A DNA stretch of 64,000 nucleotides, taken from Acetispira formosa (nom. nud.) (GTDB taxonomy: Bacteria; Desulfobacterota; Desulfarculia; Adiutricales; Adiutricaceae). The notes below the pieces were generated by a model that had not been told where the DNA came from, searched no databases, and saw only the letters and a list, made by a program, of their open reading frames with translations. This document shows, piece after piece, positions 2,450 through 20,936 of the stretch. The translations under genes were made by a program, and so were the position numbers. Numbering within the stretch: the stretch's first letter is position 1; every line of letters starts with the position of its first letter. The stretch lies in NCBI GenBank assembly GCA_023525915.1, contig CP026657.1, positions 2,690,001 to 2,754,000 of the forward strand, given 5' to 3'.

Positions 2450-4585
2450 CTACATCTCACGCAGATGGCGGGCCAGAAAATCCAGGTGCGCGGGCAACTG
2501 AGCCGACCAGTATTTCCAGGTGTGCCCGCCCTGGGCTTCGCGGTATTCATGGGCGATGTTCAGTTGCTCAAGCAATTGGTGATAGCGGCGATTCTCCTCA
2601 ATGGTCAAGCTGTCGGCCAGACCCACAGTAATCAGAAGAGAGAGGTTCCGCAGCCGTTCCGGGTCAGCTTCGGTCAGGCCGCGCGCGCAGCTTTTCAGCC
2701 ACTTTTCACTATTCTCCGCAAAAGGCCCTAACACTTTGTGGATATTCAGCGACTGACTGAGGGCGCGGCCGTCGCCGTGGGCGGTGAGATCCATCACCCC
2801 GCTCATGGAAGTGACAGCCTTGAAAACGCCGGGATATTTCATGGCCAGCGTCAACGCGCCATGCCCGCCCATAGACAGGCCGCTGATAGCCAGACGGTTT
2901 TTGTCGACCGGATGGCTTTCCAGCACATGAGGCATCATCTCGCCCATGAAATATGACTCAATGGCGCAGTCCGGCCCGTCGAGATACCAGCCGAAGGGTT
3001 CGCCGTCCGGCATGATGATGATAATATTGTGGGCCTGGGCCAGGGAGGCCAATTTTCCGCGCCCCACATTTTTGACCCAGGCGTTGTGCCCGTCCCAGGC
3101 CCCGTGCAAAAGAAAAACCGCCGGAAGCGGTTCCGCTCCGGCCCCGGCCGGGGCGGCCACGAAATAGGCCGTCTCCTTCCCGCGCACAGCCGACAGAAGG
3201 GTATATTCAGTCACCACTCCGACAGGCGCGGCATAAGCTTCATCCCCGTCACCGGCCGAAGGGGCGGCCGTTGACGCTTCATCGGCCGGAGGCGCCTCAC
3301 TGGCCTCTTCGATAGCCTCCTGTTCATACTCCACCCAATCGGCCGTCTCTTCCAGGAACTTGTCGGCCATTATCTCACCGCCTTTTTCAGTGAGGTGAAT
3401 GGAATCCTTGGCCCGGATGCGCACGCTCTTGCCCTCTGAGTCCCGGCCCTGAACGGCATAGCGGCCGTTGTCATCAGCCACCGAGAGCCAGGCGTCCCAG
3501 AAGCGGCAGTTAGACTTGGCCGCACAGGCCTCCGCGACCACCTGATTTATAGCCGCCACCCGGCTGCCGTAAGGCTCGCGCCCCATTATCGGCAAACCCA
3601 TCCAGAGCACGTCGGTCCCGCTGTTTTCGGCCATGGACAAAAGTTCAGTCACCCGGTCGCCATAGAGTTCGTTCCACTCGTCGGTGCCTAAATGGATGCG
3701 TTTTTTGCGGCCCTCGGCATTCACAATGTCCTGCGGGTCGTTGGCCCCCAAGGTGATGATGATCAGGTCAGGCTTGTATTTGGCCAGATTTTCCTTGAAA
3801 TAGGTCAGCCAGTCGAACACGTCCAGGCGGCACAGACCGGTGCCGTAGCGCCCGGTGCGGTTGACGGTCAAGCCCTCATTTTTTTTCAGGCGCCGCTCCA
3901 GGGGCGGCCCCACCCCTTCCAGCATCATGGAATCGCCCAGCAAAAGAACGCTGGACGGATTGAATGCCGTGAGCGCCGCTTCGGCCGATTCTTCTGAATC
4001 AGCCCCAGCCCCTTCCGGGGCGAAGGTTTCAGCGGCAACAGCTTCTTCCGCAACCGGCGCGGTTTCGATCTCCGGCTCTTCCATGGCTTCGAGCGTTTTT
4101 TCAGGCTGAACATCTTCATCCGGCGGGGGTGTTTCCGTCCCCTCCGGCGGAGCAATGGCTATCGCTTCAATTTCAGCCTCAGGCTCATGCGCGGCTGTGG
4201 CCATTTCCTCCAGGGCCGGTACCGGTTCAATTTCCACCGCCAGGGGTGGGGCCGGGGGGGGCGGCTCGACTCCAGGGCGGCGGGCGGGCTGCTCCCCTTG
4301 GCCGCCGACGATGATGTCGGGCACTTTGTCGAGCAGCTCGTTTTCTGCCTGATTCATTCGGGCCGGTCCGTGCGGCTCGATTTTTTCATTGATAAACGCG
4401 GCAATGCTGAATGATATTTCCGACCACAGCCCCTCGCTTTTGGCCCCTTGATCGTCAAACCATTCGGCCACTCGGCCGGACTGGTGGAAAGCGATTAAGA
4501 GGAAAGCCGCCAGGTAAATAAAAATCACCTTGCGCGGATTGAGCCCTTTTCGCTTGGAGCGAAGGTCGCTGGCAGTTCTAGCCAT
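2450..4585 (-). CDS. Membrane-anchored SGNH hydrolase fused to an esterase D-like alpha/beta hydrolase
   Basis: A 711-residue protein. Residues about 20-36 form one membrane anchor, followed by an extended Glu/Pro/Ala-rich linker (about 85-210). Next comes an SGNH hydrolase domain of DUF459 type: GDSMM near 217, GANDP, and a DSIHL block with the catalytic Asp-x-x-His arrangement. After a second acidic linker there is an esterase D / S-formylglutathione hydrolase-like domain with HGAWDG near 494, nucleophile GLSMGG near 572 and His in GGHTWKYW near 691. Both catalytic sets look intact, and the topology suggests both act in the periplasm. The ATG lies 7 nt after the pfaC-like stop, so the two are co-transcribed. 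A role in releasing, transferring or trimming acyl groups of the Pfa product is inference. Confidence 0.75.
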   Translation of the reverse strand: MARTASDLRSKRKGLNPRKVIFIYLAAFLLIAFHQSGRVAEWFDDQGAKSEGLWSEISFSIAAFINEKIEPHGPARMNQAENELLDKVPDIIVGGQGEQPARRPGVEPPPPAPPLAVEIEPVPALEEMATAAHEPEAEIEAIAIAPPEGTETPPPDEDVQPEKTLEAMEEPEIETAPVAEEAVAAETFAPEGAGADSEESAEAALTAFNPSSVLLLGDSMMLEGVGPPLERRLKKNEGLTVNRTGRYGTGLCRLDVFDWLTYFKENLAKYKPDLIIITLGANDPQDIVNAEGRKKRIHLGTDEWNELYGDRVTELLSMAENSGTDVLWMGLPIMGREPYGSRVAAINQVVAEACAAKSNCRFWDAWLSVADDNGRYAVQGRDSEGKSVRIRAKDSIHLTEKGGEIMADKFLEETADWVEYEQEAIEEASEAPPADEASTAAPSAGDGDEAYAAPVGVVTEYTLLSAVRGKETAYFVAAPAGAGAEPLPAVFLLHGAWDGHNAWVKNVGRGKLASLAQAHNIIIIMPDGEPFGWYLDGPDCAIESYFMGEMMPHVLESHPVDKNRLAISGLSMGGHGALTLAMKYPGVFKAVTSMSGVMDLTAHGDGRALSQSLNIHKVLGPFAENSEKWLKSCARGLTEADPERLRNLSLLITVGLADSLTIEENRRYHQLLEQLNIAHEYREAQGGHTWKYWSAQLPAHLDFLARHLREM

Positions 4586-4592
4586 TGCCGCT

Positions 4593-7500
4593 TCAGCCTT
4601 CCAGCACAGAAAGGAGTTTCTGGGCCAGTTCCAGGCTCAGACCGCGTTTGCCAAGTTCAATCAGGCCGATGAGCGTAGCGGTAACGCCCACCTGATCAGC
4701 CAGCTTTTTCTGGCTCAGTCCCTTGGCCATGCGCAGATCCCGAAGTTGTTCCGGGCTGAGGAGCTTGGCGGCGGCCGCCTTTTTCTCCCGGCGGCTTTTC
4801 AGGGTGCCTTTGGCCAGAATTTCTGATTCCTGATCCGAAACTTCCTCGGCCTCCGTCAGGCCGCCGGAGAAAATCAGGCCCAGCTTTTCGGCCATCAGCG
4901 GGCTGATGTTGCGCTTGCCGCGCTCCATCAGGCTGATGTAAATGGGGGTGACCCCCATCAGCTTGGCCAGCTGGCCCTGGCTGAGACCCTGTTCCTTGCG
5001 CCACTCCAGAAGCTGATCAGGGCTGATGTCCGCTACCTCGGAAGAGGCGGCCAATCTGGTTCGCGGAGCGGAGGCCCTGGGGGCGGCCGCCTCTCTGAGA
5101 CTGACGGTGAAGCCGGTCATTTTATAAATGGGCAGACCATCAACCATGAGAATGCCCTCACAAGTGAGGCTGCGGACTTCCTCGTCACATTCCGTAACGG
5201 CCAGCGAGACGCTCATTTCCTTTTTATCCGGGGTAATCTGGCCGCGATACAGCCATTCATGGGTGGAACCCATAGCCGGAGCCGCCCACGACAGCCGTCC
5301 CCGTTCCGCATCCACCCCGAACTTTTCGGCGGCCAGGGCTTTGGCCGTCTGGATGAAAGCCTCCAGACCCAGTGAGCCGGGCCAGACCGGATCCTGATAG
5401 AAATGGGCGTGGAAGAACCAGGCGGCCGGATCGACTTTAGTGACCGCAAAGGCCGAGCCTAGTGAGGCTGGGCCGCCGCCGGGATTGACGGCGATTTTAT
5501 CAATCATCCGCCAGCGGTCGCGCGGCCACAGAGCCCCCGCCGGATATGGCGAGAGGTGAGCCGGGCGGCCGGGCCAGTCGGCGGCATTCTCGCCCGTGAG
5601 GCCGGCCTGGTTAGCCAGGGCCGTGGGGCTGAAAAAGCCAAAATGGGTCACGCCCTCATAGACGGGTCGCCCGCCCACGCGGGAGGTGAATTCATAATGC
5701 TGAATCACCATTTCGCCCATGCGGCTGGAGCGGGTCAGACGGGCGGTGGTCTCCACCCGGTCGCCGCCGCGCACCGGGGTGCGAACGGCGGCCTTGCCGC
5801 CGAGATTGCGGAAATGCATCGGCCCTTCAAAGGGGAGGGCCGAACCCATGTAGGCGGCCAGGAAACCGCAGGGCTGGAGGGCGATTTCATTGAGCGCGGC
5901 ATAGGGGAGGGCCGGATTGGCTCCGCCCGCCTCATTAAGCATCCAGCTATCCTTTTTCACCGTATAAAGGGCCGTGACTTCCGCGCCCGAATTAACTTCG
6001 TAAGGCGGGCAGTTTTTGACTTCGGCCTGCTCGATAAGGTCATAGGGCGTTCGCGGCAGACGGGCCACGAAAGCTCCGTCATCAAAGCGGGCGTAGCCCC
6101 GGCCCAGAGCCTCGGAAGGTTTGCCTTCGGCCAGGGCGGTCAGCCGGGCTTTATCGAAAACCCGCATCGGGTCAGGCTGCCCCGCCGGCGGCGTAACCAC
6201 CCGGCGGCGCACCGGCCCGGCCGGGTGCCCGGACCAGATGGTCTCCAGGGCCGCTTTGGAAGAACCGGCCAGACGCAGATTCATATTGCGCACTTCCACT
6301 ATGGGCCGGTCGTCGGCCAGCATAATGGCCTCGGCCACGGCCACCGGTTCCGGTTCGCCGCCGCCCGGAGGGGCCACGAACTCCAGCCGCCGGATATGGA
6401 CCTCATAGGCGGCCACTTTAGTGGCGGCCGTCACCTGGCCCCGGCATTTCAGCGACGCGGCCGCGCCCGGCACCGGCTGCCAGTCGATCTGATCAGCCTC
6501 GCCAATCCAGCCGGAAGCCATCAGGAACAGCCTAAGGCTCTGAATGCAGCTTTCATACATGAGCGTGCCGGGCATGACCTCATCGCCCACAAAGTGGGAA
6601 GTGAGGAACCAGGCTTTGGGATCGATATCGATTTCCGTGCGGATGAAACCGGCCCCATACCGGCCGCCCCGGCTTTGCAGTTTGACCGCCCGGTCGAACA
6701 GGGCCAGTTTCCCGGCCGGAAGGCGCTCGGGGTTCTTCAGCGACGGGCGGTAATCCGCCCCAAAGGCCCCGGCCAGGTCACCGGACCGCAGAGCGGCCAG
6801 CGCGGCCGGACTCATTGAGGCCGGCAGTTCCCGGCGGAAACCCACGGCGGCCGGGTCCAGCTTCACCGGGGGCGAATCTTCGGTCAGGCCCCCGCCGGGC
6901 AGGCCCCGGCCCCCGGCCAGCTCGGCCGGGGTGAAGAAACCGGCGCAGCCGCCCTTCATGGTCAGAAGGGGCTGGCCGTTCACCGTGCCGTCAAATTCGA
7001 AGCGGAACAGGTGGGTTTGCCCATATTTGAAGAAACGCAGTATCCTGATGTCGTAACGGGCCGTCTCCCCCACTTGCGGCAGGTGACGGTGGAAAGTGAC
7101 TTCCGCGTCCAGCAGACGGTAAAGGGCCTGTCCGCGCGTGACGAAATCCGCCCCCAGCCAGGCCGAAAGCATCAGGTCGGCCTGACCGGATTCAATGGCC
7201 AGACCGGCCGGAATGTGGTTGTGATCCAGATACCAGGCCCCGGGCCGGATATCGTGCTCAGTGACAATGGCGCCTTTGCTCATCGATAAGGCTTTGCCGT
7301 CCAGGCTCAAAACCCGGTCAACCAGCATCAGCGGCTCATCCGGCAGCCTCACCCTGGAGGGGAAAGCGTCCACCTGGCTGAAGCGGGGACCGAAAACATT
7401 GCCGATTTTGCCCACCGCGAATTCCAGACACTGCTCACGATCCAGGGGAGCCGGAGTGTCGGCCTTCTGGGCCTCTTCCTGATTCTGGCGCGTTTTTTTG

Positions 7501-10500
7501 GTATCGGCCAGCCAGGCTTCGAAACTGCCCTCCTGGGCCGGAGAAGCTTCCCGCTCCCGTCTTTCCGCCGCCGGGGGAGAAACGGGGACTGGAGGGGTGT
7601 GGGCCGGAGCGGCGGCGGCCGTCTGCGGCGGCTGGAGGACGGAGGGCGCGGAGACCTCCGCCAGCACATCTTCCGGCTCGGGCCAGACTTCGGCCGAAGG
7701 GGCCAGGGTTATGGGCACCGGCAGCACCGGCGGGCCGCTTTCCACATCGGGATAGAGCACCGACATTTTTTTCAGCGGATATCCGGCCATCCATAGTTCA
7801 ACGAACAGACGGTTCAGGCCCATCCAGCCCTCATCCAGGGGGCCGCTGGCCAGACTGGCGGCCAAATGCGGCCGCCCTTCCAGAATGTTATCGATCATTC
7901 TGGTGGTGCCGGAGCCGGGCCCGACTTCCACAAAGAAACGCACTCCGTCCTGATAGGCCTGCTCAATGACTTTGGTGAAATCGTGGCCGTGGAGACCCTG
8001 TTCGGTCAGTGAATCGGCGGCCGATTTGGAGGTCAGTTCATAAGCCTTGCCCCAGGCCGGGGAATAGAAGCGAAGGTTCTCGGGCGGAGTGGTGGTGCGG
8101 GTGTGGAAGCGGCGATATTCGTCCAGAACTTTACCGACCACCGGATTGTGGACGCTGGCCACGCTCTCCAGAGGGCAGATGACCGCGCCGAGACTGTGAG
8201 CCAGGGCTTTGACCGCCCCCTCCTCACCGCCGACCACGCCCTCGCCTTTGGTGTTGACCAGAAGAAGGAAAGCGTGCCCGCGATGGATGATCGGCAGGTG
8301 CTCCAGGGCTCTTTTGATATCTTCGGCCGGGCGGGGCAGAACCCCGGTGACCCAGCGGAACAGACGGCCGTCCGGCCACTTGAAATAGCGGCGGGCGGCC
8401 AGGTGCTCTCCGGCCAGTTGGTGGGTGAAGAGCGGTGATTTTACCAGATCCTCATACAGCCCTTCCCGGTCGGCCCAGGCCCCGGTGGCCACCAGGGCGG
8501 TGGTTTCACCCAGGGAATAGCCGATGACGGCGCTGGGCAGTATCTTGAACTGCTTCAGCACCAGAGCGCCCAGCAGCCCGAAGGAGACCTGGCCCAATAT
8601 GGCCTGGGCCGGGCTGACGTCGCGGTGGCTCTGGGCCCAGAAGACATTGCTCTGGAACTGGTCGGCCAGGCGCTCGACCCCGTCTTCAAGCTTGCCCATT
8701 AAATGGGGAAAGCTCATGGCCAGCTTGCGGCCCAGCCCGTGATAGTGGCTGCCTGAGCCGGGGAAGACCCAGGCCAGGTCGCCCCGCACCCTTTCGCCCT
8801 CAAGGGCCCAGATGATGCGTCCCTTGTGGTCTTCACGCTGATTCTGGGGTTCGCCCAAAAGGCGGCTTTTGGCCTTTTTAATCTGAAGCAAAAGCTCGTC
8901 GTAGCTCCTGGCCATCATGGCCAGGGCCGGGCGGGCCCCGGAGACATTGCCGTAGCGGGCCCAGAACTGGTCGCCCAAACGCTTCAGGCCCCGCTTTTCC
9001 GAACGCACCGGCCCCAGCACCTCCACCAGACAATGATCTTTCATCGCTTCAATGGTCATGTCTTCGAGATGGTCGAGAAGCTGAAGGCTGTTGTCCTTGT
9101 TCTGGCTTCGAACCAGGAACCAGGTGGCGTCGTCATAGGAATACGGGGGCGACCAGACTTCCTCGCCGCCCTTTTCGGTGATGAGGAAGCCGGGCGACTC
9201 CAGGCTGCGCGGCGGATCGATCTTGTTTTTGATCCAATAAGCCGCTCCGGCCCCCAGACCTCTGGAAACCAGACGGTGACGGATAAAGAAAGCGTTCTTG
9301 ACCAGCGGAAACAGGCCGCCCAAGCCGCCGATGCGGCCGTCAACCGCCTCCAGTTCAGTCAGTTCCGGGGCCTGGGCCCGGCCCAGCGATTGGGCCGCGG
9401 CCGGGGAGGCCACCACCAGCATGACCGCGCCCTCCTCCCAGAGGCGGCGCGGTTCAAGAGCGGCCGTTTTGGGATCGCCCATAGTGTCCACCAGGCCCAC
9501 CAGGGCCAGGTCGATCTCGCCCCTGCCAATGGCTTCGGTGGCCAGCTTCAAGGCTCGGATGCCGGACATGGATTCCTCTGAAACTGTAAAGGCCGGTCCG
9601 CCCGAACCCAGATAGCGGGCCACCCGGCTGGCCACCAGGCTGCCCAACGCGCCTACCACCCGGCTGGCTGACAGGGGAGGGTGGCTTTTAGCCCTAAGGG
9701 CGGCTACGAATTCAGGCACGTCGCGGGTCCTAAGCTCGCCGGAGGCCACCAGGGCCTCGGCCGCCCGCAGGGGGCCGAGCCAGCGGAAAGCGTAATCGGC
9801 CGAGCGCGGATCAATGTCCACACCCATGTAAACACCCACGCGGCTTTTGTGGACGCCTTGGGCTCCCGGCTCCGCGTGGAGGCCGGTGATATAATCGCTG
9901 CCGTGAGCCGCGTCCAGACGGGCGTCGCTGATGGCTTCGTCGGTCATTTTCAGGGCCAGGGCCTGCTGGGGCAGGATGTGGGCCAGATCCTTCGGGGCCA
10001 GACGCATGTTGGCCCCCTCCAGCACCAGACTGTTGAAGAAGAGGCCGGTGGCTTTCAGGCTGCCGAAACGCCGGGTGGCGATAATGGGCGGGCCTTCCGA
10101 ATCCATCCAGTTCTGGGCCAGGGAGGCGAAATCCGGCCAGGGGGCCGACAGGGCGCGGGCCGACAACAGACGCACCGGAGGCGCTTCGGCCTGAACACTG
10201 GCCGAAGCACGGCCTTTGGCTGGAGCTTCCCACAAATGGGGCAGGTATTCTTCAACGATCACCTGGGCGTTGACCCCGCCGAAGCCAAAGGCGTTGACGG
10301 CCGCCAGACGCGGGCCGCCCCCTTCCGGTTCCGGCCAGGGTTCCGGTTTGGTCAGAACACGCAAGGCCGGCGCGGCCGCAAGGTTCAGGCCCTCGGCCTC
10401 CGTTTTGTACCCGGCCGTGGGCGGGAGGGTCTTATGCATGAGGGCCAGAACGGTTTTAGCCATGCTGGCCGCCCCGGCGGCCGACAAAAGGTGCCCGATG

Positions 10501-11618
10501 TTGCTTTTCACCGAACCCAGCACCGGCACGGTGCCGGAGCCGTAGCCTTTGGGGAATTCCGGCGCGGTAAGCAGCTCCTTCAGAGTGGTGACTTCCACAT
10601 GGTCGCCCAAAATGGTGCCCGTGCCGTGGGCTTCAATCAGGCCCACGGAAGAGGGGCTGAGCCCGGCGTTTTTCCAGGCCTCTTTCATGGCCCGGAGCTG
10701 GCCCTCGGCCTGCGGGGCCAGAATGTTGCCGGTCTGGTCGTTGGAAAGGCCCACGCCGCGGATGACGGCCAGCACCTGGTCCCCGTGGGCCAGAGCCGTA
10801 TCCAGACGCTTCAGGACCAGGGCTACGGCCCCTTCGCCCACCACCAGCCCGTCGGCGCTCTGGTCGAAGGGATTGAGGTAGCCGGAGGTGGACAGGGCCC
10901 GAAGCTGGCAAAAGCCCAACTGGGTAAAAAGGGCGTCGGCCTTGGCCACGCCCCCGCTGATTATGGCCTGGGCCTTGCCGGAGAGAAGCTCCTGCGCGGC
11001 CAGGTGAATGGCATAGAGGGAAGAGGCGCAGGCGGCGTCCAGAGTGTAGGCCGGGCCGCTGAAGCCCAAAGAGCGGGCCAGGAGGCGGGCCGAATAGCCC
11101 AGAAGCCGGAAAGCGTTCTTCGGGGGAGCCTTCAGCTGCGGGCGGCTGGACCATTCCCGGGTGGCCTCTTTGGTGTAGAGCGACACGGCCGCCTCGGCCA
11201 TGGCCGTGGTCGGCAGGATCACATGGCCGGAGATGACTCCCACCTTTTCGCGGTCGACCTGCTCCCACTTAACTGACGCGGCGGCCCGGCGGCCGGCGGC
11301 CAGCCAGAAAGCCAGAGAGCCATCGGCGCTTTTGGGATCGAAGTCATCCGGGAGGTCCAGCCCTTCTTCATCGACGGTGCGTTCAGGATTGAACACGCCG
11401 TTCAAACTATAAGCCTTATCCGGGGCCGGGCCGCCCTCCTGATAGAAATGTTCCGGTTCAGCCCCCCAATCCAGGGCTGTGGCGGGCTGGAAAAAACGTT
11501 TGCCGCCGATAATATTAGACCAGAACTCATCAGGCGTTGAAGCTCCGGGCAGGCTGAGCCCCAGCCCGACAACGGCCACTACCTCACTGGGTTTGGGTCT
11601 TTCAATATTGGTTTTCAT
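4593..11618 (-). CDS. pfaC: PfaC/Pfa3-like lipid megasynthase (KS-CLF-AT-DH) with two C-terminal XRE HTH domains
   Basis: A 2341-residue synthase. It holds: an active ketosynthase (Cys near 195 in DAACASS; His motifs EAHGTGT and KSNIGH); a chain-length-factor-like KS near 600-780 with SEESMSG in place of the Cys; an acyltransferase with nucleophile GYSLGE near 1035 (GHSxGE is usual) and a His in SVHNP near 1156; then FabA-like dehydratase hotdogs from about 1390 to 2140, with active-site-like His in SHFVGDEVMPG near 1676 and AHFYQDPVWPG near 2073. KS, CLF, AT and DHs on one chain match the myxobacterial Pfa3 layout rather than Shewanella PfaB plus PfaC. Where myxobacterial Pfa3 carries an acylglycerolphosphate acyltransferase, this protein has two clear XRE helix-turn-helix domains (about 2193-2235 and 2290-2335). 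RBS AAAGGT precedes the ATG. It heads an operon with the SGNH-esterase, OleD-like and larE genes. Confidence 0.9.
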   Translation of the reverse strand: MKTNIERPKPSEVVAVVGLGLSLPGASTPDEFWSNIIGGKRFFQPATALDWGAEPEHFYQEGGPAPDKAYSLNGVFNPERTVDEEGLDLPDDFDPKSADGSLAFWLAAGRRAAASVKWEQVDREKVGVISGHVILPTTAMAEAAVSLYTKEATREWSSRPQLKAPPKNAFRLLGYSARLLARSLGFSGPAYTLDAACASSLYAIHLAAQELLSGKAQAIISGGVAKADALFTQLGFCQLRALSTSGYLNPFDQSADGLVVGEGAVALVLKRLDTALAHGDQVLAVIRGVGLSNDQTGNILAPQAEGQLRAMKEAWKNAGLSPSSVGLIEAHGTGTILGDHVEVTTLKELLTAPEFPKGYGSGTVPVLGSVKSNIGHLLSAAGAASMAKTVLALMHKTLPPTAGYKTEAEGLNLAAAPALRVLTKPEPWPEPEGGGPRLAAVNAFGFGGVNAQVIVEEYLPHLWEAPAKGRASASVQAEAPPVRLLSARALSAPWPDFASLAQNWMDSEGPPIIATRRFGSLKATGLFFNSLVLEGANMRLAPKDLAHILPQQALALKMTDEAISDARLDAAHGSDYITGLHAEPGAQGVHKSRVGVYMGVDIDPRSADYAFRWLGPLRAAEALVASGELRTRDVPEFVAALRAKSHPPLSASRVVGALGSLVASRVARYLGSGGPAFTVSEESMSGIRALKLATEAIGRGEIDLALVGLVDTMGDPKTAALEPRRLWEEGAVMLVVASPAAAQSLGRAQAPELTELEAVDGRIGGLGGLFPLVKNAFFIRHRLVSRGLGAGAAYWIKNKIDPPRSLESPGFLITEKGGEEVWSPPYSYDDATWFLVRSQNKDNSLQLLDHLEDMTIEAMKDHCLVEVLGPVRSEKRGLKRLGDQFWARYGNVSGARPALAMMARSYDELLLQIKKAKSRLLGEPQNQREDHKGRIIWALEGERVRGDLAWVFPGSGSHYHGLGRKLAMSFPHLMGKLEDGVERLADQFQSNVFWAQSHRDVSPAQAILGQVSFGLLGALVLKQFKILPSAVIGYSLGETTALVATGAWADREGLYEDLVKSPLFTHQLAGEHLAARRYFKWPDGRLFRWVTGVLPRPAEDIKRALEHLPIIHRGHAFLLLVNTKGEGVVGGEEGAVKALAHSLGAVICPLESVASVHNPVVGKVLDEYRRFHTRTTTPPENLRFYSPAWGKAYELTSKSAADSLTEQGLHGHDFTKVIEQAYQDGVRFFVEVGPGSGTTRMIDNILEGRPHLAASLASGPLDEGWMGLNRLFVELWMAGYPLKKMSVLYPDVESGPPVLPVPITLAPSAEVWPEPEDVLAEVSAPSVLQPPQTAAAAPAHTPPVPVSPPAAERREREASPAQEGSFEAWLADTKKTRQNQEEAQKADTPAPLDREQCLEFAVGKIGNVFGPRFSQVDAFPSRVRLPDEPLMLVDRVLSLDGKALSMSKGAIVTEHDIRPGAWYLDHNHIPAGLAIESGQADLMLSAWLGADFVTRGQALYRLLDAEVTFHRHLPQVGETARYDIRILRFFKYGQTHLFRFEFDGTVNGQPLLTMKGGCAGFFTPAELAGGRGLPGGGLTEDSPPVKLDPAAVGFRRELPASMSPAALAALRSGDLAGAFGADYRPSLKNPERLPAGKLALFDRAVKLQSRGGRYGAGFIRTEIDIDPKAWFLTSHFVGDEVMPGTLMYESCIQSLRLFLMASGWIGEADQIDWQPVPGAAASLKCRGQVTAATKVAAYEVHIRRLEFVAPPGGGEPEPVAVAEAIMLADDRPIVEVRNMNLRLAGSSKAALETIWSGHPAGPVRRRVVTPPAGQPDPMRVFDKARLTALAEGKPSEALGRGYARFDDGAFVARLPRTPYDLIEQAEVKNCPPYEVNSGAEVTALYTVKKDSWMLNEAGGANPALPYAALNEIALQPCGFLAAYMGSALPFEGPMHFRNLGGKAAVRTPVRGGDRVETTARLTRSSRMGEMVIQHYEFTSRVGGRPVYEGVTHFGFFSPTALANQAGLTGENAADWPGRPAHLSPYPAGALWPRDRWRMIDKIAVNPGGGPASLGSAFAVTKVDPAAWFFHAHFYQDPVWPGSLGLEAFIQTAKALAAEKFGVDAERGRLSWAAPAMGSTHEWLYRGQITPDKKEMSVSLAVTECDEEVRSLTCEGILMVDGLPIYKMTGFTVSLREAAAPRASAPRTRLAASSEVADISPDQLLEWRKEQGLSQGQLAKLMGVTPIYISLMERGKRNISPLMAEKLGLIFSGGLTEAEEVSDQESEILAKGTLKSRREKKAAAAKLLSPEQLRDLRMAKGLSQKKLADQVGVTATLIGLIELGKRGLSLELAQKLLSVLEG

Positions 11619-11720
11619 AATTTACCTTTAATGGAAACAGGGCACAGCCTGTTTACCCATGACATTCGGGGTTCAATAAATCGGCCAAATTTTTTAGCAA
11701 GCAGTTACGTCTCTTGACCG

Positions 11721-11942
11721 CCGGGAGCGGGGAATTGTTTTTGTCCCGTCTCCGTTCCGGGGGCCGCGAGTCACGGAGACGGGACAAAAACAATTCCCCG
11801 CTCCCGGCTACTACTCGGCCAGGCGCACTTTTCAGCCATTAAGAAAGCTGACCAGGTAGCCGCCGGGTGAAATGTTTTTGTCCGGCTCCGTGACTCGCGA
11901 CCCCCCGGAACGGAGACGGGCAAAAACATTTCACCCGGCGGC
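11721..11942. repeat. Twin long hairpins with mutually complementary loops (locus 1)
   Basis: Two long palindromes in the 346-bp gap between pfaA and pfaC. Hairpin 1 has a perfect 34-bp stem (11721-11754 with 11774-11807) and loop 11755-11773. Hairpin 2 has a 32-bp stem (11859-11890 with 11911-11942, two non-Watson-Crick positions) and loop 11891-11910. The second loop is the reverse complement of the first apart from one substitution and one extra base. No T-run follows either stem, so a simple terminator is not obvious. A second such pair is at 48830-49045. Confidence 0.9.
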
Positions 11943-11965
11943 GGCCATACGCCGCTGGCGTAACT

Positions 11966-14900
11966 TTAAAATGCCGTATCCAAATTAGTTCCAGGCCCCA
12001 GGACAACCACTTCCACCGGGTCGTTTTTGGGTGTGCCGATCAGGGTGGCGAACAGCCGCGCCCCTTCAGCCAGGGGAATCAGCCCCACACCTTCACGTTC
12101 AAAGATACGCTTGAGGCCCGCGTCGACCATGCCGCCGTCCCACGGGCCCCAGTTGACCGAGACGCTCTTGCAGTTGTGCCGTAAGGCGGTCAGTCGGGCC
12201 AGCTTGTTCAGGGTTTCGTTTCCGGCCGCGTAATCAGCCTGCCCCCGGCGGCCGAAACGGGCCGTGGAGGAGGAAAAGAAAGCCGTCAGGTGCAACGGTT
12301 CGTCGGCCAGTTCCTGAAGGATCAGCTCGGCCATACGCGCCTTGGTGTCAAAGACCAGATCAAAATCTTCATCAGTCTTGTCCAGGAACAGACCGTCGGC
12401 CAGCACCCCGGCCCCATGGATGAAACCGTGAATGGGGCCGTAATTGCGCCTGATTTCCGTCAGAGTGGCCACGGTCACGGCCGGGGAGATCATATCGCCG
12501 GAGATATAGGTGACCTTGGAGCCGCTCTTTTCCATAGCCATCATATTGGCCCGGATTTCCCGGCCGTGCATGATCAGGCGGCTCTGGCGGGCCAGCTCCC
12601 TTGGCTCCGGCTTTTCCCTGGCCCGTTCATAAATGGCCTGGCGCACGGCCCCTTCATCGGTCAGATCGGCCAGCCAGTAAGGCTCGGCCGGAGGCAGCGG
12701 GGTGCGGCCCATGATGACCAGATGGGGCCGGAAAGAGCGGGCCACTTCCCGGAGGGCGGCGGCGGTGACGCCCCGCGCCCCGCCGGTGACCAGGATGGTC
12801 TGCCCTTCGCGGATGTGGCGCACCCGGATGTTCTTCATCTTATAGGGGGCCAGCCGGGGGGCCGCGAAGCGGCCGGGGGCTTCCAGCCCCACTTCCACCG
12901 GGGCCTCAGCGGCGCTGGCGGCTTCGATGGAGTCCACAAAGGAGGCGGCTGCCGTGTCATAGGCATCGATGGGCAGATCCACCACCCTGGCCCGTACCCC
13001 GGCCCACTCACGGGCCGCCGTTTTGATCAACCCGGCCAGAGAAGCGGAGGCGGGTGAAAGGTCCATATTATCGGGACCGCCAAGGGCGAAGCTGCCGCCC
13101 ATGAAAGTCACACCCATAAGGAGAGGGTTTCCGCCCCGCTCGGCGGCCCGGCTGAGGGCCAGACCTGCTCCCCTGATGACCTGGAAAGCCGTTCCGGCCA
13201 GCCCCAGATCTTGATCGGCCTTGGGCCAGACCACTATAAGACCGGCCGGCAGAGGCGCTTCGCTCAAACGCCCGGCCTCATGCCAGGCGGCCCTGGCCAC
13301 TTCCAGCCCCTCATTGGCCAGGCGGGCGGCCAGCTCATCAGCCAGAGGTGATTCATCTGACAAGAGATGCACCACATCACCGGCCCGCAGGCCGAAACCG
13401 GCCGCGCGGGCCTGAAGGGCCAGAGGAGCCATATCCACCCGGAAAGCGGTCAGGGCCGTGGTCTGAATGGCTTCCGGCGGTTCCGGGGCCGATTTGAAAG
13501 CCGGGGGGCTGTTTTTGGGCGGACGGCCCGGCCCGCGACGGCGGGTTTCAGTCTTCTCCGGCGCGGCCGGCGGGTCCGGCGCTACAGGCGCGGATGGCAA
13601 AGATTCAGACAGGATATTTCTAAGGTCGCCCAGAGTTCTGGCCTCAGTCAGGAGGGCGCTTTGGGTGATGGACTGTCCGTCGTCGCCCATGGATTCGCTC
13701 AGGGCGGCCATGATTTCCACCCGGCGAATGGAATCCAATCCCAGGTCACTTTCCAGATCCATATCAAAGTTCAGCATGTCGGCCGGATAGCCGGTTTCCC
13801 GGGCCACCACTTCAAACAGAAGGGCGGCGGCGCCTCCAGCCGGGGCCTTGGGGGCCGGGGACTGAACCGGAGCCGTGACAACCGGGGCCGGATCGGCGGG
13901 CATCGGGAGGGGTTCCGGCGCGGGCGCTGAAGCTGCCGACGGCCGGGCCGCCGGGGCTTCGCTTCCGGCCCCCCTGACCAAAGCGGCCAGATCGGCCAGG
14001 GTTTCCACACCGGTCATGACTTCGGCCGTACCCAGTGATTCCGCCTCCGGGAGGCGCTCACTGAGGGCGGCCATAATTTCCACCTTTTTAATGGAATCCA
14101 GGCCCAGATCGGCTTCCAGGCTCATATTCAGATTGAGCATATCGCGCGGGTAGCCGGTCTCGGCGGAGATGACCTCCAGAAGGATTTCTTCACCATTGGA
14201 GCGTCCGCCAACGGTCCCGACAGGCGCGGCAGCCGCCGGAGGCACTGACGAGAAGGCCGGGGCGGCTTGAGGCGCGAGGCCGAAATTTTTCTCCAGGGCC
14301 GCGCAAAGGTCGCCCAAAGTTTGGGCGGAGGCCAGGCTGTCGGCCGAGAGGGCGGCGGAACTATCAACCCGTTCGCTCATCAGGCTGGCTATTTCCACCA
14401 TTTTAATGGAGTCCAGTCCCAAATCTTCGCCCAGGCGCATATCGGGATTCAGCATTTCCAGCGGATAGCCGGTTTCGGCCGACACCACCTCACGCAGAAC
14501 CGGCCACACCGAAGCGGAGGGGGCGGCGGGAGCGGAGAAGGCCGGGGCGGATACCGGAGCGGCCGCGTAAACGGGGCCGCCCACCAGATGGACGAGATCC
14601 CGGAGGGTGGAAGCGCTGTTCATGGTTTCCGCGCCCAGCCCCTGAACGGAGGGCATCTGTTCGCTGAGGACGGCCATGATTTCCACTTTTTTAATGGAAT
14701 CCAGGCCCAGATCGGCCTCCAGATCCATATCCAGGTTAAGCATATCCACCGGATAGCCGGTTTCCTGAGCCACCACCTTCAGAACCACCTCTGAACCGGC
14801 CGAATCGACCGGCCCGGCTGAAAGCGGCGCGGGCGCAATGGCGGCCGGAGCTTTCTGAAAGGCGGCCTGTATGGCCTGAATCGGCAGGGCCGGGGCGGTC

Positions 14901-17491
14901 CCGCTTTCCAGACTGCGGCTTACCAGACGCAGGGCTTCGTTCTGGGTGTCGAGAAATTCCTGATGAAGACGGGCCGTCTCTTTGGCCATTGATTCCAGCA
15001 CGTCGGCCACCGTCTTTTCCGGCGGCGCGGACGGAGCAACCTGGACCGGAACTGGCGCCGGGGCCGGTTCAGCCGGGCGATTCGCGCGGCGCGGAGAGGG
15101 CGGAATCTCTTTTTTGACGAACTGATTGGCCCCGGAAACCATTACGGTAAAAGTTCTGGCGGCGTTTTCCTTGCTCTCGGGCGGCGATGACAGGGCCGGG
15201 GCGGGCCAGGCGCTGAAATCCACCGGCAGGCCCCAGGAGGCCAGCCGGGCCAGAAAGCGGGCCAGGTCGAGATGACCGCCGCCGGTCTGGTCGAGAGCCA
15301 GCACCCGCCCGGCGGTCTTGGCCGCCGCCTGGCTGAGGGCCCGGCCGGGGCCGACCTCCAGCCAGAGGCTGATGGACTGATTGCTCTTGCGATTAAGTTC
15401 CTGCACCACATTGATCGGGCCGTCGAGCGCGGAATCCGGGCCGCAGAGGCCGATAGTGGCCGAAGGCTTCAGGCCGAATCTGGCCAGAATGCGGCTCAGG
15501 CCCTGATTGACGGCCAGGGTGGCGGCCATTTTCAGGCGCTGATCCTTAAAATCGGCCGACCAGGCCGCGCGGAATTCGCGGGCGGCCAGATCCGGCGGAT
15601 AAAGAGCCAGCCCCAGGGGGCTAAGTTCCGGCGCGCGGGTTTTGAGTTCGGCTTCGGCCTCGCTCAGGGCCTCAATCATTTCCGGCCAGTCGGTGGCCAG
15701 TTCCAGGAACATGCCCTTGGCCGCACTCTCCGGCCCCGGACAAAGAAAGCCGAAACCGCCCTTGAAGGGCTGGGCGCTGCTGAAATACACACCTTCGGGA
15801 ATGTCTTTTTCCTTAACATCCAGCCCGGCCACTACGTTGAGGGCTTTGCGGGCCAGCTCCGTCACCTGCCCGGCCGGGGCGGCCAGAATCAGGCGGCAGG
15901 GGTGGGCGGCTGAAAAGGTGCGGCGGCTGTGAACAGCCAGATCGGCCAGATGGTCTTCCCGCTTCAGGAGCTGTTCCAGGGCGGAGGCCAGATTGGAGTG
16001 GGAGGGGCCGCTGTAGGCGAAAAGGTCGATGTCGGTGGAGCCTTCCGGTAAGGCTTTCCGGTGGGAAGCCTCTTCCAGCACACAGTGGAAATTACTGCCC
16101 CCGAAACCGAAAGCGCTGACCCCGGCCCGGCGGACTCCGTGGGAGAGCCAGGGGCGGGCAAAGCTGGAAAGGTGGAAAGGCGACTTGCCGGAGGTCAAAA
16201 GCGACAGGGGCTTTTTGACCTTGATCGTCGGCGGCAGCACCTTGAAATGAAGGGCCAGGGCGGCCTTTATCAGCCCGGCCACACCGGCGGCGGCCTTGGT
16301 GTGGCCAATCTGCGATTTTACCGAGCCCAGGGCGCACCAGGGCTGGCCGGATTCCCCGCGCCCGCTCTCCCGGAAGACGCGGCTCAAAGCCTCCACCTCT
16401 ACGGCGTCACCCACGGCCGTGCCGGTGCCGTGGCCCTCCACCAGCTCAACGGTGGCCGGGCTTAGGCCGGCGCTATGGTAGGCGTTTTCCAGAGCCTTGA
16501 CCTGACCGTCGGCCGAAGGGGCGAAAATGGCGGTGCCCTTGCCGTCGCTGGATGAACCCACGGAGCGAATGACCGCGAAAATGCGGTCTTCATCCCGCCG
16601 GGCATCCGAAAGGCGCTTTAAGACCACCACGCCCACGCCCTCGCCCAGCATGGTGCCGTCGCCTTCCTGATCGTAGGCTTTGACGTCGCCGGTGGGCGAC
16701 AGGGCCGGAGTTTTGGAAAAGCAGGTATACATGAAGGGATCGCTGAAAGTGTCCACACCGCCGGAAACCACCAGGTCGGCCTGGCCGCTCTGAAGCTCCA
16801 TAACGCCCTGACGGATAGCGGCCAGCGAACTGGCGCAGGCCGCGTCCACCACCAGATTGGCCCCGCCCAGATTCAGGCGGTTGGCTATGCGCCCGGCAGT
16901 GACGTTGCCCAAAAGGCCGGGGAAGGAATTATCCTGCCATTCAGTAAATTCAGCCCCGAAACGTTTTAGGATTTCCGCCGACAACTCTTCATCGACGCCG
17001 CTGTCGGCCAGGGCCCTTTTCAACTGGGGGTGGGCCAGGCGGCTGCCCAGGGACACCACCATTTTAAGCGCCCCGGTCACACCCAGCATAACAGCCGTGC
17101 GGCCGTGGTCATATTCGCCCCCGGCTTCGTAACCGGCGTCAATCAGAGCGCGGTCGGCCGCTACCAATCCCAGGAGCTGGGTGGTGTCTATGGCCGGGAG
17201 GTCATTGGGCACTATGCCGTATTTTAAAGGCTCGAAAGGAATTTTATCCAGAAAACCGCCACGGCGGCCATAGGTCTTGTCCTCAGCCTTGGGGTCCGGG
17301 TCGTAATAATCGGCCGTGGACCAATGGTCGGCCGGAATGTCGCTGATGGAATCGCGGCAGTGTCTGATGGCCGACCAGTAACCGGCCAGACTCCCCGCGC
17401 CGGGGAAAAAGCAGCTCAGGCCGATAATGGCAATGGGCTCTGCCACGTCTCCATCCGGCTTTTTAGCGATTTCGGAACAATCCTGTTTCAT
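11966..17491 (-). CDS. pfaA: PfaA/Pfa2-like lipid synthase: KS, vestigial AT, four ACPs, KR
   Basis: An 1841-residue synthase. The ketosynthase has Cys near 218 in DAACASS and His motifs EGHGTGT and KSQIGH. Residues about 575-760 align by eye to a malonyl-CoA acyltransferase, but FPGQGSQ is replaced by LCPGPES, the GHSxGE nucleophile region reads GLCGPDS, and about 150 residues including the catalytic His seem lost before a remaining LEVGPG. Four tandem acyl carrier domains follow, with phosphopantetheine sites LGLDSI near 930, 1027, 1132 and 1252. The ketoreductase spans about 1560-1841 (TGGARGVT; Ser and Tyr in FFSSSTARFG and ADYAAGN). The C-terminal dehydratase found in typical PfaA is absent. 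RBS AGGATAT precedes the start. Malonyl loading must come from elsewhere, perhaps the AT of the PfaC-like partner (inference). Confidence 0.9.
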   Translation of the reverse strand: MKQDCSEIAKKPDGDVAEPIAIIGLSCFFPGAGSLAGYWSAIRHCRDSISDIPADHWSTADYYDPDPKAEDKTYGRRGGFLDKIPFEPLKYGIVPNDLPAIDTTQLLGLVAADRALIDAGYEAGGEYDHGRTAVMLGVTGALKMVVSLGSRLAHPQLKRALADSGVDEELSAEILKRFGAEFTEWQDNSFPGLLGNVTAGRIANRLNLGGANLVVDAACASSLAAIRQGVMELQSGQADLVVSGGVDTFSDPFMYTCFSKTPALSPTGDVKAYDQEGDGTMLGEGVGVVVLKRLSDARRDEDRIFAVIRSVGSSSDGKGTAIFAPSADGQVKALENAYHSAGLSPATVELVEGHGTGTAVGDAVEVEALSRVFRESGRGESGQPWCALGSVKSQIGHTKAAAGVAGLIKAALALHFKVLPPTIKVKKPLSLLTSGKSPFHLSSFARPWLSHGVRRAGVSAFGFGGSNFHCVLEEASHRKALPEGSTDIDLFAYSGPSHSNLASALEQLLKREDHLADLAVHSRRTFSAAHPCRLILAAPAGQVTELARKALNVVAGLDVKEKDIPEGVYFSSAQPFKGGFGFLCPGPESAAKGMFLELATDWPEMIEALSEAEAELKTRAPELSPLGLALYPPDLAAREFRAAWSADFKDQRLKMAATLAVNQGLSRILARFGLKPSATIGLCGPDSALDGPINVVQELNRKSNQSISLWLEVGPGRALSQAAAKTAGRVLALDQTGGGHLDLARFLARLASWGLPVDFSAWPAPALSSPPESKENAARTFTVMVSGANQFVKKEIPPSPRRANRPAEPAPAPVPVQVAPSAPPEKTVADVLESMAKETARLHQEFLDTQNEALRLVSRSLESGTAPALPIQAIQAAFQKAPAAIAPAPLSAGPVDSAGSEVVLKVVAQETGYPVDMLNLDMDLEADLGLDSIKKVEIMAVLSEQMPSVQGLGAETMNSASTLRDLVHLVGGPVYAAAPVSAPAFSAPAAPSASVWPVLREVVSAETGYPLEMLNPDMRLGEDLGLDSIKMVEIASLMSERVDSSAALSADSLASAQTLGDLCAALEKNFGLAPQAAPAFSSVPPAAAAPVGTVGGRSNGEEILLEVISAETGYPRDMLNLNMSLEADLGLDSIKKVEIMAALSERLPEAESLGTAEVMTGVETLADLAALVRGAGSEAPAARPSAASAPAPEPLPMPADPAPVVTAPVQSPAPKAPAGGAAALLFEVVARETGYPADMLNFDMDLESDLGLDSIRRVEIMAALSESMGDDGQSITQSALLTEARTLGDLRNILSESLPSAPVAPDPPAAPEKTETRRRGPGRPPKNSPPAFKSAPEPPEAIQTTALTAFRVDMAPLALQARAAGFGLRAGDVVHLLSDESPLADELAARLANEGLEVARAAWHEAGRLSEAPLPAGLIVVWPKADQDLGLAGTAFQVIRGAGLALSRAAERGGNPLLMGVTFMGGSFALGGPDNMDLSPASASLAGLIKTAAREWAGVRARVVDLPIDAYDTAAASFVDSIEAASAAEAPVEVGLEAPGRFAAPRLAPYKMKNIRVRHIREGQTILVTGGARGVTAAALREVARSFRPHLVIMGRTPLPPAEPYWLADLTDEGAVRQAIYERAREKPEPRELARQSRLIMHGREIRANMMAMEKSGSKVTYISGDMISPAVTVATLTEIRRNYGPIHGFIHGAGVLADGLFLDKTDEDFDLVFDTKARMAELILQELADEPLHLTAFFSSSTARFGRRGQADYAAGNETLNKLARLTALRHNCKSVSVNWGPWDGGMVDAGLKRIFEREGVGLIPLAEGARLFATLIGTPKNDPVEVVVLGPGTNLDTAF

Positions 17492-17838
17492 TGTTATATC
17501 CTAAAAAATGCACGTTTGCTGTACAAGGCTTGTTTGCTATATGCTGATACACACTGACAATCACTTGTTAAAAGCGCGTTGGCAGTGCGCCGGTAAAAAT
17601 CTTATTATTTGTCCGCATCATATAAAATCGCGGCTCATTTAACAGCGTTTTCCCCAAAAGGGACCACACTCTAACCCCCAGCCTGAATCAGCCGCCAATT
17701 CAGCGAAGCACTGTTTTTAGTTCTGTTGTCCAGACTTGGCCACGTTATGGCCATGTTGTCATCAGCGGTGTATTTACTGAGAGGCGGCCAACGCTGTTAG
17801 TTAATACTCCATGACACGAAATATTATCGCTGTCAAAG
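17492..17838. other. Intergenic upstream of pfaA, no gene seen
   Basis: AT-richer than its surroundings and expected to hold the pfaA promoter, but I could not pick out a convincing -35/-10 pair on the minus strand. No ORF with an RBS. Confidence 0.5.
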
Positions 17839-18010
17839 CAGCAATTCTCAAAGTAAACTTTTTCCCATGAACTTACAGCTCACAGCTACGCAAAAAGCGT
17901 GGTTTTTGCGTAGCTGTGACCGTTTTGGCTTCAAAACCAATCGCTGACGCTCCGTCTCCCCGCAGGTCGACCTTCTATTTTAAAATCGCCGTCTACTTTG
18001 AGAATCGCTG
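17839..18010 (+). mobile_element. MITE-like element, complete copy 1
   Basis: A 172-bp non-coding element with terminal inverted repeats (CAGCAATTCTCAAAGTA at the left, its near-complement ending CGCTG at the right). It contains a strong hairpin built on CAGCTACGCAAAAA and its complement. Flanks CTGTCAAAG and TTGTCACAG match at 7 of 9 positions, consistent with an aged 9-bp target duplication like those of the other complete copies. It separates pfaD from pfaA. Confidence 0.85.
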
Positions 18011-18074
18011 TTGTCACAGGGCATAAGCTAGTTGTGTTCATTGGCCCTGTCTGGAAAAAATCTCGTGCCGGGCC

Positions 18075-19604
18075 TTACAGATACCCGGCGATGTCGGCCA
18101 GAGGCTGCGGCTTCAGGGGCGCCGCCGCGCCATAGGGCAACGCCCCGATGGAGACGGCCAGATCCCGCCGCAGAAGCACGGCCGCGCCATACATTAGGTT
18201 CATGGCCAGATCCACCACTTTGCGATTTTCCGGCTGTTCATAAATGGTGCCCTTGGCCCATTCATTAAACGCGCCCTGGGCTGGGCCGCAGAAAATCTGC
18301 CAGTCGGTGCGGCGCTCTTCCACCCCGCCGATGGCCCAGCGGGAGGCCTGGCCCAGATACCAGCGGAAGACCAGGGCCATTTTATACTTAGGATCGGCTT
18401 CAGCCTTGGCCACCTGACCAGGATCGCGCTCGACGAAGAAAGATTTGGTCTGCTCCCAGGTATCGGCCAGGGTCTGTTTGAAAATCTGGGTCTCAAGCGT
18501 TTCGCGGTCAGCCGCCGGAATTTCGTCCATGGAGCCATACTGCCGATAGGCGTCGGCCAGCTTCTGGGCCCGCATGGCATAAAGCGTGCCGAACTTCAGA
18601 ACCTGAACCTTGGCCCCCAGTTCAAACATGTCGGCCGCGGGTCCCGGAGTCACATCGGCCTGACCGGCCTTGGCCAGAAGCTCACGCCCGGCCAGAGCCA
18701 GGCCAGCCTCCACACAGCCCTGATTGATTGAGCCGGTGACAAAATAGGAGGCCCCAGCGGCCCTGGCCGCCACCATCGCCCAAGGGGTGCCGATGCCGCC
18801 GGCCGCGCCCACCCTCAGGGGCTGGGCATAGCCGAATTTTTCCGTGGCTTCGCGGGCCGCGGCCGCCATGGCCGGCCACAGGGCCAGGGCGGGACGGAAA
18901 TCGGTGTGTCCGCCGGAATCGGCCTCGGCCGTCAAATCTCCGGCCATGGGGATGAAGGGGGCCAGATCGGCCTCGTCCTGAGTCAGCCAGCCCCTCTTCA
19001 GGCACTCCTTGACCAGCTTGTCGGGGGCCGGGCTGAAGAAACGGCGGGCCAGTTCCACTCGGGAGACTTTGGCCATAATGCGGTTGGGCACGGAAATCGT
19101 GCCATCGGGCAGCCGCCTGGCCCCGGACAGGCGATAGCGCACCAGCGGCAGGGAAATCTGCATGAAAGCCGAAGCTTCAATCAGGTTGACGCCGTGCATC
19201 AGATAAATTTCCACCACTTTTTCTTCCCAACTGGGGTCGTGGGGAGTATTGATGAGGCAGGAGCCGAAGGTTTTGCCCCCAAGTTCCTTTTTGATGGCCA
19301 CGATCTCGTCTTCAATGCGCGGCGGCTGCATGCCGGAAGCGCCGTAAACGCCCAGAGCCCCGCCCTCGGCCAGAGCCTTGACCATCGCCTTGGAGCTGAT
19401 GCCGCCGACCATCGCGCCGCCCACATAGGCATAGCGGACCCCGTAATCTTTGAGGAAATCCGGGCAGCCGAAACCGCTGAGCGGAAATTTAGGAATGATT
19501 CCCATCAGGTTCTGATCCCCGGCCGCGCCTAACGTGCCGTCGGCCTTGATATAAAGCGTCTGATTTGGATCGGATATGGCCTTCAACAAATTATCATAAT
19601 TCAT
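18075..19604 (-). CDS. pfaD: PfaD enoyl reductase (2-nitropropane dioxygenase family)
   Basis: A 509-residue flavin-dependent trans-acting enoyl reductase of the PUFA/PfaD type, which reduces chosen enoyl intermediates on the Pfa synthase. Diagnostic stretches are LYIKADGTLGAAGDQNLMG at the N-terminus, YAYVGGAMVGGISSKAMV, the Gly-rich flavin-binding AAGGIGTPWAM, and YFVTGSINQGCVEAG. The start at 19604 gives the family's usual N-terminus; a longer ORF to 19817 only adds residues from intergenic repeat DNA. It lies between the PPTase and pfaA, all on the minus strand. Confidence 0.92.
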   Translation of the reverse strand: MNYDNLLKAISDPNQTLYIKADGTLGAAGDQNLMGIIPKFPLSGFGCPDFLKDYGVRYAYVGGAMVGGISSKAMVKALAEGGALGVYGASGMQPPRIEDEIVAIKKELGGKTFGSCLINTPHDPSWEEKVVEIYLMHGVNLIEASAFMQISLPLVRYRLSGARRLPDGTISVPNRIMAKVSRVELARRFFSPAPDKLVKECLKRGWLTQDEADLAPFIPMAGDLTAEADSGGHTDFRPALALWPAMAAAAREATEKFGYAQPLRVGAAGGIGTPWAMVAARAAGASYFVTGSINQGCVEAGLALAGRELLAKAGQADVTPGPAADMFELGAKVQVLKFGTLYAMRAQKLADAYRQYGSMDEIPAADRETLETQIFKQTLADTWEQTKSFFVERDPGQVAKAEADPKYKMALVFRWYLGQASRWAIGGVEERRTDWQIFCGPAQGAFNEWAKGTIYEQPENRKVVDLAMNLMYGAAVLLRRDLAVSIGALPYGAAAPLKPQPLADIAGYL

Positions 19605-19625
19605 ATTTACTACCCTATAATATGG

Positions 19626-19740
19626 CTTTTTCCAAAACCGGCCGCCCGCAGTCGGGCCAAAAGAGTGGTTTTTGCCCTTGAGCACCGGTTTTGGCCTGAA
19701 AACCAGCCGTCGGCGCTCTGTCTCCCTGTGGTCGAACCCC
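19626..19740 (+). repeat. Degraded MITE-like copy between PPTase and pfaD
   Basis: It shares the blocks GTGGTTTTTG, AAACCAG and GGCGCTCTGTCTCCC with the complete elements at 17839 and 54046, but the ends are not recognisable. Confidence 0.5.
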
Positions 19741-19782
19741 GCGATAATGCCTGCTAAACCGCGCCTAAGCCCTTCAGACGGC

Positions 19783-20430
19783 TCAGCTTTCAGCCCTGAA
19801 TAACGCCGATTCCGCACCGGCCAAAGCCAGCAAAAAATCCCCGGCGCGACCCAAAAGCACTTCCGCCCGGTAATTTTCCGGGCCCAGCCAACTGACGGTA
19901 AGCGTCTGGCGGTTCCAATCGGCCCCGGTGACCCTCACCTGGTCAAAATGATTCAAAAGGGCTATGCCCCATGATTTTCCAGCCGCCTCCCTGGCGCACC
20001 ACATGGCCAGATGCGGCAGGTCTTCTTCATTCGCCCGGTCCGCCAGCTTCAGCTCGCCAGCCGTAAAGGCCCAGTTTATAAGCGAGGGCTTCAATACTCT
20101 CCCGGTTCGCTCTATATCAATGCCTACCGGCACCCGCCCGGCCACTGCCGCGGCCGCCCCGGCCGTGTGGCTGATAGACAGGAAACCTAGCCGCTCATTG
20201 CCGCCGGTCCGCCACAAATCCGGCCGTCCTTCCGGCCCTTTGCGCAATTCCAATTCTTCCGGCGACATCCCCCACAGGCAGCCACCGGCCACTTTGGCGG
20301 CCAGACGGCTGATCATTCGGCTGTGCCGCGCCGCCGGTGATTTAACGGCCGCGAAACTCTCCAGTTCAGCCGGGCTGAACAGACCTTCACCGCCGCACCC
20401 GCCGGGGTCCGGCAGAATCGCCGCCCGCAC
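19783..20430 (-). CDS. pfaE: 4'-phosphopantetheinyl transferase, Sfp/PfaE-like
   Basis: At least 215 residues. It transfers phosphopantetheine from CoA to the serines of the four PfaA carrier domains. Family motifs present are FLSISHTAG, VGIDIER (metal-binding Asp) and WCAREAAGKSWG. The listed start is a GTG at 20430. The frame stays open upstream to a TAG at about 20497-20499 and encodes residues resembling a normal family N-terminus (LNIDWLPTGPD), yet it offers no ATG, GTG or TTG there. The true start may therefore be a rare codon such as ATC near AAGGA, or the N-terminus may be eroded. It is the first gene of the minus-strand Pfa cluster. Confidence 0.85.
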   Translation of the reverse strand: MRAAILPDPGGCGGEGLFSPAELESFAAVKSPAARHSRMISRLAAKVAGGCLWGMSPEELELRKGPEGRPDLWRTGGNERLGFLSISHTAGAAAAVAGRVPVGIDIERTGRVLKPSLINWAFTAGELKLADRANEEDLPHLAMWCAREAAGKSWGIALLNHFDQVRVTGADWNRQTLTVSWLGPENYRAEVLLGRAGDFLLALAGAESALFRAES

Positions 20431-20640: not shown

Positions 20641-20936
20641 GCTTACTTAACCGAACGGCCGAACACTCGGCCCTAAACAACATTTTACAATGTATACGAT
20701 CCCGGCCGATGAATCAACCATTTTCGAATAAAAGCTAAGTAAATAGGTATATGCGCTATCGGTGTGTTGTCGAGTTTCATGTACATTGCGCATATTAATA
20801 AGCTGAAATTACGAATTATTTCCGGTTGTGCAAAATGGTGGTGTAAACAGATGTCATAATTATTCCATACAATATCCACATAGAGTCAATCAAATTTACA
20901 TTGCTGTCCGTTAGTCTCAAAGGTGTTTCGACATCG

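Follow-up and report, generated by a model that had tools for sequence, protein, structure and literature searches.

A tandem XRE-type tail on a PfaC-like lipid megasynthase of Candidatus Adiutrix and the circumstantial case for an autoregulatory enzyme

What role could two helix-turn-helix domains of a DNA-binding type play at the end of a lipid megasynthase? The gene that raises this question lies in a window of 64,000 nt (the whole stretch of DNA analyzed) from Candidatus Adiutrix (Desulfobacterota), a bacterium of the termite gut with a genome of 4.68 Mb in 3 contigs. The initial annotation described two XRE-type helix-turn-helix domains (HTHs) fused to the C-terminus of a PfaC-like protein and suggested either that the enzyme regulates its own expression, perhaps at palindromes in the DNA upstream of its gene, or that the helical bundles were reused as docking domains between synthase subunits. 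The fusion itself was borne out: the frame at 4593-11618 of the minus strand runs without interruption, encodes a pfaC-like (pfaBC-type) megasynthase of 2341 aa and contains both of the HTH motifs quoted. The genus was assigned through the named relatives JAISJK010000052, JAISFR010000114 and JAITUX010000191, whose contigs match genomes placed in it. The genome studied here (4.7 Mb) is larger than those of its congeners (1.5-3.0 Mb).

Analysis with Pfam showed the domain order KS, CLF, PfaB-like AT, FabA-type dehydratase (DH) pairs and tandem XRE tail, where the CLF is the second KS-like region, called without a CLF-specific model, and the AT is related to PfaB with a TIGR02816 score below the cut-off. 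The protein thus carries the KS-CLF and FabA-type DH domains of the Pfa type, and pfaD and a PPTase gene are found in the same cluster (Pfam, NCBIfam); judged by its sequence, it is a PfaBC-type secondary lipid synthase, the predicted maker of unusual fatty acids. Type D-like clusters have been described with the pfaBC arrangement [KS-CLF-AT-DH2] (PMC3098273). The present locus has the same catalytic order in pfaC and a single operon for pfaA [KS-ACPn-KR], pfaD and pfaE, and differs from that description in the tandem XRE tail, in the DUF459/esterase and OleD-like genes located downstream and in a PfaA for which Pfam gives no malonyltransferase.

The genes of the operon, all on the minus strand, follow the order pfaE-pfaD-pfaA-pfaC-DUF459/esterase-OleD-like. 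The first (19783-20430) codes for a pfaE-like phosphopantetheinyl transferase and is followed by the gene of a pfaD-like enoyl reductase (18075-19817; TIGR02814 above cut-off), whose alignment with the congeners begins only near residue 70, which puts the probable true start near 19610. The pfaA-like gene (11966-17491) encodes KS, four ACP and KR domains (TIGR02813, 1052 bits against a cut-off of 1010), and its product gave no Pfam match for a malonyltransferase. Directly downstream of pfaC lies a gene (2450-4585; Pfam/NCBIfam) whose predicted product combines a DUF459/PatB-like SGNH domain with a PF00756-type esterase; it adjoins pfaC in the genus and not in the sister genera examined, and is a candidate for transfer or release of the lipid product. 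The last gene (1414-2550) codes for a homologue of the OleD-like 2-alkyl-3-oxoalkanoate reductase, scoring below the equivalog cut-off. The presence of such a gene behind the pfa genes recalls the pfa/ole linkage that occurs in marine bacteria (PMC6463001). No separate transcription factor was found among the operon genes annotated here. The operon layout of the sister genera differs from that of Candidatus Adiutrix. Elsewhere in the window, two ORFs on opposite strands, 41368-43146 (plus strand, 592 aa) and 41383-43113 (minus strand, 576 aa), overlap almost completely.

The tail consists of HTH1 (residues 2199-2255; 4854-5024, minus strand) and HTH2 (residues 2288-2341; 4596-4757, minus strand), both identified as XRE/HTH_3 domains by Pfam, AlphaFold2, Foldseek and a five-species alignment. 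HTH1 is preceded by linker A (residues 2177-2198; 5025-5090, minus strand), which is Ala/Pro-rich and disordered in the model (AlphaFold2, alignment). Linker B (residues 2256-2287; 4758-4853, minus strand; alignment) joins the two HTHs and carries a basic KGTLKSRRE-like motif in four of the five species. The stretch GVTPIYISLMERGKRNISPLMAEKL of HTH1 is nearly invariant across the five species, and LSQKKLADQVGVTATLIGLIELGKR is the sequence noted for HTH2. The tail matched Pfam HTH_3 with E=3e-21 in two stretches, the best at residues 2204-2246, and HTH_31 at residues 2291-2339; the HTH_3 scores of the two HTHs, 47.8 and 43.0 bits, are both above the curated cut-off of 23, and the profile search proposed at the outset was therefore positive for each of them.

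AlphaFold2, run on a 3-sequence alignment, modeled the tail as two helical bundles with pLDDT of about 80-93 and linkers below 50; at an overall pTM of 0.40, the mutual arrangement of the bundles is not given by the model. The top PDB matches of the tail in Foldseek were nearly all XRE proteins, found with a probability of 1.00 and E-values of 0.01-0.2 (best 0.013), which are weak because each match spans only about one third of the tail model. An XRE helical fold of both HTHs, as expected from the initial annotation, is supported by these predictions. Foldseek and sequence searches placed the restriction-modification (R-M) controller proteins C.AhdI and C.BclI, as well as HipB, SinR, DdrO and further XRE regulators, among the nearest relatives of both HTHs. 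Within the congeners, HTH1 and HTH2 are about 41-45% identical over 55 aa, which makes a duplication their probable origin. The tail retains the frame through which XRE proteins contact DNA, LSQ..LA...GV......E.G.R, and HTH1 also has the G-K-R-N loop. Base-contacting residues of C.Esp1396I include R35, T36 and R46 (PMC4041747); by motif alignment, the equivalents of R35/T36 are P/I in HTH1 and A/T in HTH2, so that T36 is kept by HTH2 only, and the equivalent of R46 is kept by both HTHs in this genome. No internal start for a free HTH protein was found to be conserved together with a Shine-Dalgarno sequence.

Five genomes of the genus, this one and those of four other species, have an assembled 3' end of pfaC, and each of them encodes both HTHs in frame; the complete congener proteins are similar in length. 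PfaC identity is about 66-73% among the species with full-length genes. Within the genus, mean pairwise identity is 57% in the last DH and 20% in the linker that precedes the HTHs; it is 68% in HTH1 and 69% in HTH2, with 51% in the linker between them. The HTHs exceed the adjoining dehydratase in conservation, and there is hardly any variation in their recognition helices. Such a profile would be expected from purifying selection acting on two folded domains that are held by flexible tethers.

In the sister genera of the family PfaC stops no more than 3 residues past the last FabA domain, wherever the gene end is assembled, and in more distant relatives (Desulfobacter, Desulfobacteraceae, Oligoflexales, Hydrogenedentes, Gemmataceae) the protein, which has no HTH, extends at most about 30 residues beyond it. 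Outside the genus, no fusion of the tail was detected among 395 sampled genomes of the phylum, where the PfaC-like matches end at the last FabA domain, or among PfaC relatives of other phyla, in which the protein stops or the alignment is lost at the same place. One relative (L043), in which the tblastn range reached residue 2284, was rejected as a carrier of the fusion since no HTH was found on checking. The genome itself contains no second copy of the tail, and no close stand-alone relative was found in the family, in the 395 phylum genomes or in phages; the best free-standing HTHs are about 48% identical to the tail over 46 aa. In the searches made, the tandem XRE tail appears restricted to this genus.

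The main rival to autoregulation is a docking role, in which the XRE bundles would hold PfaC to PfaA, PfaD, the DUF459/esterase or the OleD-like protein and would have no DNA contact left. Docking domains of megasynthases are typically placed at the C-terminus on a flexible linker, as this tail is; possible downstream partners are present in the operon of the genus, unlike in the sister genera, and the recognition helices (TPIYISLMERG, TATLIGLIELG) are fairly hydrophobic. However, the same helices hardly vary and stand in a preserved DNA-contact frame that includes the G-K-R-N loop of HTH1, and the homologous synthases of the sister genera do without a tail. We consider docking unlikely, although it is the alternative to be taken most seriously.

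No exact 5+5 palindrome was widely shared among the upstream regions; a signal was found by direct comparison of the sequences upstream of pfaE in six genomes of the genus, the seventh having no assembled upstream region. All six testable genomes showed a single conserved block, composed, with small variations, of CTATTTAYTTAG, 13-18 nt and TTGATT-N17-TACATT. In the window, this block includes CTATTTACTTAG (20735-20746, minus strand), a conserved quasi-palindrome (CTANNTANNTAG) that we propose as an operator upstream of the promoter, and a conserved sigma70-like promoter (20689-20717, minus strand) made up of TTGATT (20712-20717), 17 nt and TACATT (20689-20694). The centre of the CTATTTAYTTAG element is located about 58 nt upstream of the inferred transcription start. 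The intergenic DNA flanking the block does not align among the genomes of the genus, and the gene upstream of the operon varies between species. The last G of CTATTTAYTTAG is T in two species, one of which has one more change. Two species no longer have a strict palindrome, and the distance to the -35 box is 13 nt in one species and 17-18 nt in the others.

The conservation of the 12-mer was matched by none of 1000 and none of 2000 dinucleotide shuffles, the latter limited to the AT-rich 45 nt before the -35 box. Together with the promoter pattern, the 12-mer has a single match in every one of the six genomes and no match in 54 genomes from outside the genus; the exact 12-mer alone has 0-2 copies per genome. 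Because these six genomes also served to derive the pattern, what is informative is where it lies and that each genome has it only once; as the sister genera have another operon layout, its absence from them is weak evidence.

Alternatively, the element could serve as a sigma70 UP element or be bound by some unlinked regulator, the tail acting elsewhere or not at the pfa operon. Both UP elements and unrelated activators can bind around -58, which is where this AT-rich element lies with respect to the inferred start. Against this stand the shuffles of the 45 nt, which show the element to be much more constant than AT-richness calls for, and the variable distance from the element to the -35 box. 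This explanation is unlikely, slightly more so than docking.

The palindromes to which the initial annotation had tentatively tied autoregulation turned out to belong to dispersed repeats. The sequence inserted between pfaA and pfaC (11619-11965) is a repeat with at least 40 copies in the genome at 80-85% identity, and the pfaD-pfaA gap (17492-18074) holds a copy of a second family, with at least 40 copies at 82-91% identity; only 40 candidates were scored per family, so that the true numbers are probably higher. The two families, of about 240 bp and 175 bp, are unrelated, palindrome-rich and intergenic. Both sets of palindromes were rejected as operators, the second as part of a dispersed family and the first also because congener pfaC begins 0-45 nt from the end of pfaA, which leaves no room for an operator. 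Autoregulation is still the best hypothesis, at a site other than these two. The repeats raise a further explanation, by which the tail would anchor the synthase on the nucleoid or on numerous weak sites in the DNA, the dispersed repeats for example, leaving its own operon unregulated. Copies of both many-copy families do lie inside the operon, and linker B is basic in most species, but congeners with the same tail are almost gapless before pfaC and do not share the repeat found there, and a role bound to the repeats of one genome cannot account for conservation across the genus; tethering is improbable.

The confinement of the tail to one genus, in the searches made, would also suit a neutral event in which pfaC fused with an adjacent regulator gene and gained a tail with no function. 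This is very improbable, since the HTHs outlast divergence to about 66-73% identity and are better conserved than their catalytic neighbour, next to a fast-diverging linker. The joining of two genes by a misassembly or a frameshift, named at the outset as what could undo the fusion, is refuted, as is chance, by an uninterrupted frame and by the same fusion in five independent genomes, four of them of other species, with similar lengths where complete.

Autoregulation is, on circumstantial evidence, the somewhat more probable role: the pfaC product would be an autoregulatory lipid megasynthase. A more specific form of this proposal, which we put forward tentatively, is that the megasynthase is itself the transcription factor of its operon, the tail binding CTATTTAYTTAG at the pfaE promoter with an occupancy that depends on how the synthase is assembled or on its acyl state. 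Within one chain, the two HTHs would act as a built-in pseudo-dimer or, alternatively, four HTHs would be available per enzyme dimer, because the KS and FabA domains are dimeric. Bound about 58 nt before the inferred start of pfaE-pfaD-pfaA-pfaC transcription, the tail would tie expression of the synthase genes to how much assembled synthase is present or to its state. Binding by the tail and its pairing with this element are inferred from their co-occurrence. The location of the element, upstream of the promoter, is easier to reconcile with activation than with simple occlusion; that acyl-loading or complex assembly provides the signal is speculative.

Several observations count for autoregulation: the nearest relatives of the HTHs are DNA-binding regulators, the HTHs are more conserved than the DH across an unconserved linker, the block before pfaE is preserved amid unrelated DNA and next to differing upstream neighbours, and a nearly unique element coincides with an annotated operon that has no transcription factor of its own. 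The variable spacing to the -35 box, the loss of palindromy in two species and the R35/T36 equivalents, which HTH1 has not kept and HTH2 has kept in part, count against it.

Trigger enzymes such as PutA and NadR are metabolic enzymes to which a DNA-binding domain has been added and which thereby control their own pathways. The pfaC product likewise has catalytic and DNA-binding-type domains in a single chain, with a tail of another fold family. To our knowledge no PKS/FAS megasynthase is counted among the trigger enzymes, and we know of no PUFA synthase, polyketide synthase or type I FAS that regulates itself without a separate regulator. In CR.NsoJS138I, an XRE-type C protein is fused to a restriction enzyme, both activities are kept and the protein activates its own promoter (PMC3850674), a precedent showing that the design of enzyme plus controller can work. 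Like PfaC, it has an XRE controller-type domain on an enzyme, in its case a restriction enzyme with one C protein and here a 2341-aa megasynthase with a tandem HTH tail. The R-M controller proteins C.AhdI, C.BclI and C.Esp1396I, which in sequence and fold rank with the closest relatives of known structure for both HTHs, are small and free-standing, and by motif alignment the tail has largely not kept the base-contacting R35/T36 pair. No restriction-modification genes linked to the tail were found in the operon, which sets it apart from the controllers of such systems. A search of the open-access literature yielded no XRE-tailed PKS or PUFA synthase; Pfa synthases, XRE domains and enzyme-regulator fusions are each known, and no PKS/FAS-type megasynthase that combines them was encountered there.

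If the tail docks proteins, a DNA-binding fold would have been repurposed as a megasynthase docking domain, which is likewise unusual. If autoregulation is correct, a lipid megasynthase would monitor itself and govern the transcription of its own genes with no separate regulator. Such an enzyme would be a natural model for engineering feedback into megasynthases and would offer a direct route to the regulation of secondary lipid synthesis in anaerobic gut symbionts.
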